Assembly (NCBI GenBank): GCA_026415655.1
Contig: JAOAGR010000011.1
Location: 1-48,557 of the forward strand
Reading direction: 5' to 3'
DNA from: Candidatus Dojkabacteria bacterium
Lineage (GTDB): Bacteria > Patescibacteriota > Dojkabacteria > JAOAGR01
DNA length: 48,557 nt
The position numbers and the translations under genes were made by a program. How positions within the stretch are numbered: the first letter of the stretch is position 1; each line of letters opens with the position of its first letter. This document shows positions 46,696-48,538 of this stretch, piece by piece. The notes below the pieces were generated by a model. That model made no database searches. It saw only the letters and a program-made list of their open reading frames with translations, and was not told the origin of the DNA.

Positions 46696-48538
<1,843 letters not shown>

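Follow-up and report, generated by a model that had tools for sequence, protein, structure and literature searches.

The window analyzed here is a 48,557-nucleotide (nt) contig from a Candidatus Dojkabacteria genome, one end of which carries part of an rRNA operon. Positions 46693 to 48557 of the minus strand hold the 3' two thirds of a 23S rRNA gene (cmscan match to RF02541, 1616.6 bits, model positions 1071 to 2925), with the 5S gene about 105 nt downstream (46588 to 46479). The 5' part of the 23S gene is missing at the contig end and resumes, with a 40-nt overlap, at the end of contig C7 (G000:C7:202918). Inside the gene, the contig ends (48539 to 48557) in AGATGTGTATAAGAGACAG on the minus-strand reading, which we take to be the Nextera transposon mosaic end, i.e., untrimmed adapter terminating the contig. 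The window genome (881,805 bases in 14 contigs) contains a single near-full 23S match.

Using E. coli rrlB as the numbering ruler, a gapless alignment places the A-loop hairpin of helix 92 (2547 to 2561) at 47022 to 47036 on the minus strand, where the window reads UGGGGAGUUCACCCA and E. coli reads AUGGCUGUUCGCCAU. From 2551 to 2557, the usual bacterial C-U-G-U-U-C-G is replaced by G-A-G-U-U-C-A. Three bases thus differ: 2551 is G rather than C (47032), 2552 is A rather than U (47031), and 2557, opposite G2551, is A rather than G (47026). The tRNA-contacting bases G2553, U2554, U2555, and C2556 (47030 to 47027) are unaltered, including G2553 (47030), which pairs with C75 of the A-site tRNA. 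A preliminary description of this DNA had called the same three substitutions and the retention of G2553 and the GUUC, and the alignment confirms both. The stem is intact as well, with a U-A pair at 2547-2561 and G-C pairs at 2548-2560, 2549-2559, and 2550-2558. Stem length, loop length, the GUUC bases, and U1955 of helix 71 are shared with the canonical A-loops of E. coli and Thermus thermophilus, which differ from the window in having a C-G pair at 2551/2557 and a 2'-O-methylated U2552. The earlier characterization of 2551/2557 as non-paired holds in that G-A is not a Watson-Crick pair and the usual closure of the loop is lost; the unpaired state itself goes beyond what the bases indicate, as a G-A apposition need not be unpaired.

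The remainder of the gene has the hallmarks of a functional 23S rRNA: a strong covariance-model match, an rRNA operon context, and intact catalytic bases. The stretches forming the peptidyl transferase center ring are standard except for two substitutions, U2586C and G2588A. In helix 93 (2588 to 2606; 46977 to 46995, minus strand), the compensating change noted previously at 2593/2600 (U-A to G-C) is accompanied by a second one at 2588/2606 (G-C to A-U). Helix 71 (1945 to 1961; 47623 to 47639, minus strand) keeps U1955 (47629), the base that C2556 may contact.

The preliminary description had added that the factor-binding site of the large subunit is altered too, and this is borne out by the sarcin-ricin loop (2653 to 2667; 46914 to 46928, minus strand), which reads UAGUACGCGAGGACC. 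Its tetraloop is GCGA instead of GAGA, with C2660 (46921) at a position where A is, to our knowledge, regarded as universal. GCGA, GCAA, or GUAA tetraloops also occur in several relatives from families f1, f2, f4, f8, and f10 and in one from f12, and in a sample of the phylum non-A2660 matches were confined to this class, using a search pattern that leaves some loops undetected. An E. coli laboratory mutant with A2660C/G2661A, and hence GCAA, is viable (PMC5829649).

We then examined the A-loop across the class Dojkabacteria (85 genomes), locating it first by an exact pattern and next by a relaxed one, and reading two genomes, G031 and G015, manually. The alignment at 2547 to 2561 that the preliminary description had proposed recovers the same A-loop in G001, a complete one-contig genome from another genus of the same family, and variants in families f1 and f2 and in G031 of f12. 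The 15-nt A-loop of G001 is identical to that of the window, although the two 23S sequences share only about 83% identity over 1.8 kb (15 to 17% divergent). Among 55 A-loops from the class, the states at 2551-2552-2557 were C-U-G in 45, G-A-A in 6, G-U-A in 2, and G-G-A and A-U-G in 1 each. The two f1 genomes are variants, as are the six f2 genomes whose A-loop is readable and G031; G2551/A2557 thus spans three families, and the base at 2552 is A, G, or U. G-A-A occurs in f1 and in genus g3 of f2, G-G-A in g10, and G-U-A in g23 and g15 of f2; G031 combines G-A-A with U2556. The Candidatus Dojkabacteria record CP129470.1 has the same A-loop as class member G002. Two other departures were seen in the class, A2551/G2557 in G017 (L014) and U2555C alongside G2551/A2557 in G015 (L188). 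In a phylum-wide sample of 379 genomes, 5 of 242 readable A-loops lacked U2552, all of them from f1 or f2, with a search pattern that is blind to G031. Beyond 2551 and 2557, f1 and f2 are set apart from most class members by positions 1944, 2007, 2261, and 2279, none of which lies in the A-loop.

To ask how often the variant arose, we built a tree from 23S columns with the A-loop and sarcin-ricin loop excluded. In this tree, f1, f2, and G031 fall at separate places. The AU test rejects topologies that unite G031 with f1 or with f2 (P ≤ 0.002) but does not reject one in which f1 and f2 are monophyletic (P = 0.25). Because G031 cannot be grouped with either family, there were at least two origins within the class.

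A scan of a collection of genomes from 84,980 species for non-U bases at 2552, with 2551 and 2557 left free, extended this distribution well beyond the phylum; the scan fixed the GUUC, so the conservation of 2553 to 2556 among its hits is partly by design. Among the matches listed, the purine form is found in the anammox Brocadiales (Brocadia, Kuenenia, Jettenia, and Scalindua), in Armatimonadota (Fimbriimonadia and Chthonomonas), in many DPANN archaea (Pacearchaeota, Nanoarchaeota, Woesearchaeota, and Aenigmatarchaeota), and in Methanoliparum. The A-loops of Brocadiales, Armatimonadota, and DPANN have the same G2551-A2552-A2557 triple as the window but other base pairs in the stem, and their sarcin-ricin loops retain A2660. 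Coupling of C2660 to the A-loop variant is thus not general, as the Brocadiales, Armatimonadota, and archaeal variants all keep A2660 where it is readable. The change is also not peculiar to this organism, as had been supposed, given that several unrelated phyla share the triple. In unbiased surveys, the triple was present in 5 of 47 Planctomycetota and 14 of 47 Armatimonadota. Three matches titled Vogelbacteria, Methanoregulaceae, and Flavobacteriales (L055, L093, and L117) have 23S sequences of DPANN or Armatimonadota type and are likely mis-binned contigs.

The three bases change jointly. All A2552 or G2552 sequences among the matches listed have G2551 and A2557, except for two with C-G-G (L061 and L098). 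Matches with C2552, like the window, lack U2552, but among the matches listed they always keep the ordinary C2551-G2557 pair; they come from Bifidobacterium, Aeriscardovia, Olegusella, and Olsenella (L051, L057, L070, L080, L086, L110, L141, and L146) and from one Falkowbacteria record. When three unbiased surveys were combined, G2551/A2557 accompanied purine 2552 in 26 of 26 sequences and U2552 in 2 of 123. The corresponding Fisher P value of 5e-27 overstates the coupling, since genomes of the same clade are not independent, and only the direction of the coupling and its recurrence can be trusted. Exceptions to the coupling do occur, namely G-U-A and C-G-G sequences, and from the two f2 genomes with G-U-A it seems that the closing pair may change ahead of 2552. 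All 75 aligned variant A-loop sequences retain U1955, and the stem pairs 2548-2560 and 2549-2559 covary across the variants. If C-U-G was the ancestral state, we count about five to seven independent gains over all lineages.

What might the altered loop look like? According to a 2025 structural study, the A-loop pivots about 2551 and 2557, while U2552 and C2556 point into the loop and form a non-canonical pair in its NMR structure (PMC12123411). The changed loop bases are confined to these two layers, the 2551/2557 hinge and 2552/2556. The tightness of the coupling suggests a specific non-canonical closure, in which the C2551-G2557 pair and the U2552 opposite C2556 would be replaced by G2551/A2557 and a purine (A, sometimes G) opposite C2556. 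A putative G-A closing pair, with the purine stacked opposite C2556, would then stand in for both the Watson-Crick closure and Um2552. The CCA end would most likely dock normally, with G2553 presented to C75 as usual. In the Thermoproteota A-loops with C2554/C2555 (PMC9976906), the tRNA-contacting bases are what is altered, whereas in the window these are constant and the closing pair and 2552 have changed.

Taken together, this sequence is a variant of a known element that is inherited and has arisen repeatedly; it is rare, but other organisms have it too. We consider it probable, at roughly three chances in four, that it is the functional A-loop of what is apparently the only 23S rRNA in this organism, in a recurrent alternative form with a non-canonical closure. 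A stronger proposal is that this is a second A-loop architecture (G-A closed, with a purine at 2552) on which about five to seven bacterial and archaeal lineages have converged, and which spares large-subunit maturation and CCA docking the step that depends on Um2552. This we regard as tentative, and on balance doubtful. Our literature search returned no structure, modification map, or activity for a ribosome with G2551/A2557 and purine 2552.

The preliminary description had also tied A2552 to RlmE, credited there with making the methylated U2552. Following that description's suggestion, we looked for RlmE and found it in neither the window genome nor G001 (FtsJ profile; TIGR00438). The tested G2551/A2557 genomes give no convincing TIGR00438 score, and three strong FtsJ matches from the class are not scored as RlmE. 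The enzyme is equally missing, however, from 39 of 42 Planctomycetota with U2552 and from essentially the whole class, and it is reported to be confined to some Proteobacteria and Spirochaetia (PMC12123411). Its absence is therefore background. Neither the absence of RlmE nor A2552 implies the other, and loss of RlmE as the specific cause is unsupported. Since RlmR of Thermus methylates 2552 regardless of the base (PMC12123411), the variants may carry Am2552. SpoU-family 2'-O-methyltransferases were found in 20 of 20 class genomes tested; those of the f2 genomes examined are all short. In f1, a SpoU gene encoding 266 to 270 amino acids is located within the ribosomal protein operon, where it follows or precedes rplX on one side and overlaps rplE by a few bases on the other. 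Genes at this place in both f1 genomes and in G021 of f5 have the coordinates L180:1144-1941, L168:1144-1953, and L182:1237-1956. The f1 protein matches RlmB, TsnR, and RlmR alike, all below cutoffs, and G021 has a standard A-loop, so a dedicated 2552 methyltransferase cannot be assigned.

These results bear on the possibility that the variant is an adaptation to loss of a 2552 methyltransferase, such that the base was freed once Um2552 was gone and a purine stack substituted for the methyl group. While the lack of a convincing RlmE in the tested G2551/A2557 genomes and the short SpoU proteins of f2 are in line with this idea, RlmE is missing from U2552 relatives too, RlmR acts irrespective of the base, and f1 retains a long SpoU enzyme. 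We consider it unlikely. Of similarly low probability is that reduced ribosomes drifted neutrally at these bases without adopting any coherent alternative structure. The class does vary at further conserved sites (C2660, A1955 in some C-U-G members, and A2551/G2557 in G017), and small genomes, those of Patescibacteria and DPANN, are overrepresented among the variants. Drift, however, fits poorly with the recurrence of the same three-base set in the larger genomes of Brocadiales and Armatimonadota, or with the finding of just two sequences among the matches listed in which purine 2552 sits beside a C-G closure. A third alternative is a slip in register, with the GGGG of the window pairing with CCC as 2549-2560, 2550-2559, and 2551-2558 to leave an AGUUCA hexaloop. 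The f1 hairpin does have competing folds in isolation, but the same loop sits on stems in Brocadiales (UCUGG/ACAGA) and Armatimonadota (UCCGG/ACGGA) for which the normal register is the sole option, and we reject the slip as very improbable. Least credible of all is that the bases come from an error in sequencing or assembly, from contamination, or from a decayed rRNA copy: the contig stops within the 23S gene at a mosaic-end sequence and the records are mostly metagenome-assembled genomes, but G001, complete and from another genus, has identical A-loop bases, similar ones occur in f2, the stem, helix 93, and peptidyl transferase center bases are all intact, and the genome has no second near-full 23S match. 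Error can thus be excluded without read data, as independent error in both genomes is not credible, and the earlier judgment against poor sequence as the explanation was sound.

The alternative A-loop form favored here bears on a base that, with its methylation, is held to be conserved across all domains of life and, in E. coli, to trigger the late steps of 50S assembly. We found no description of natural A2552, or of joint variation at 2551/2557, in the open-license literature, and the available portions of a saturation mutagenesis study of the A-loop (PMC7049736) and of the report on Thermoproteota variants (PMC9976906) do not mention a natural purine at 2552. The variant sequences are already public, and rRNA specialists may have seen them. 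In the mutagenesis study, C2551 is among the positions with at least one substitution at 75% or more activity and U2552 is not (PMC7049736), which would fit a need for an altered context before 2552 can change. The variant appears to be a second, naturally occurring version of the A-loop rather than an error. Recurrent natural ribosomes without U2552, including those of the larger-genome Brocadiales and Armatimonadota, offer a direct test of what U2552, its methylation, and the pairing of 2551 with 2557 each contribute, and they indicate that an A-loop judged broken from its sequence can be an inherited alternative.
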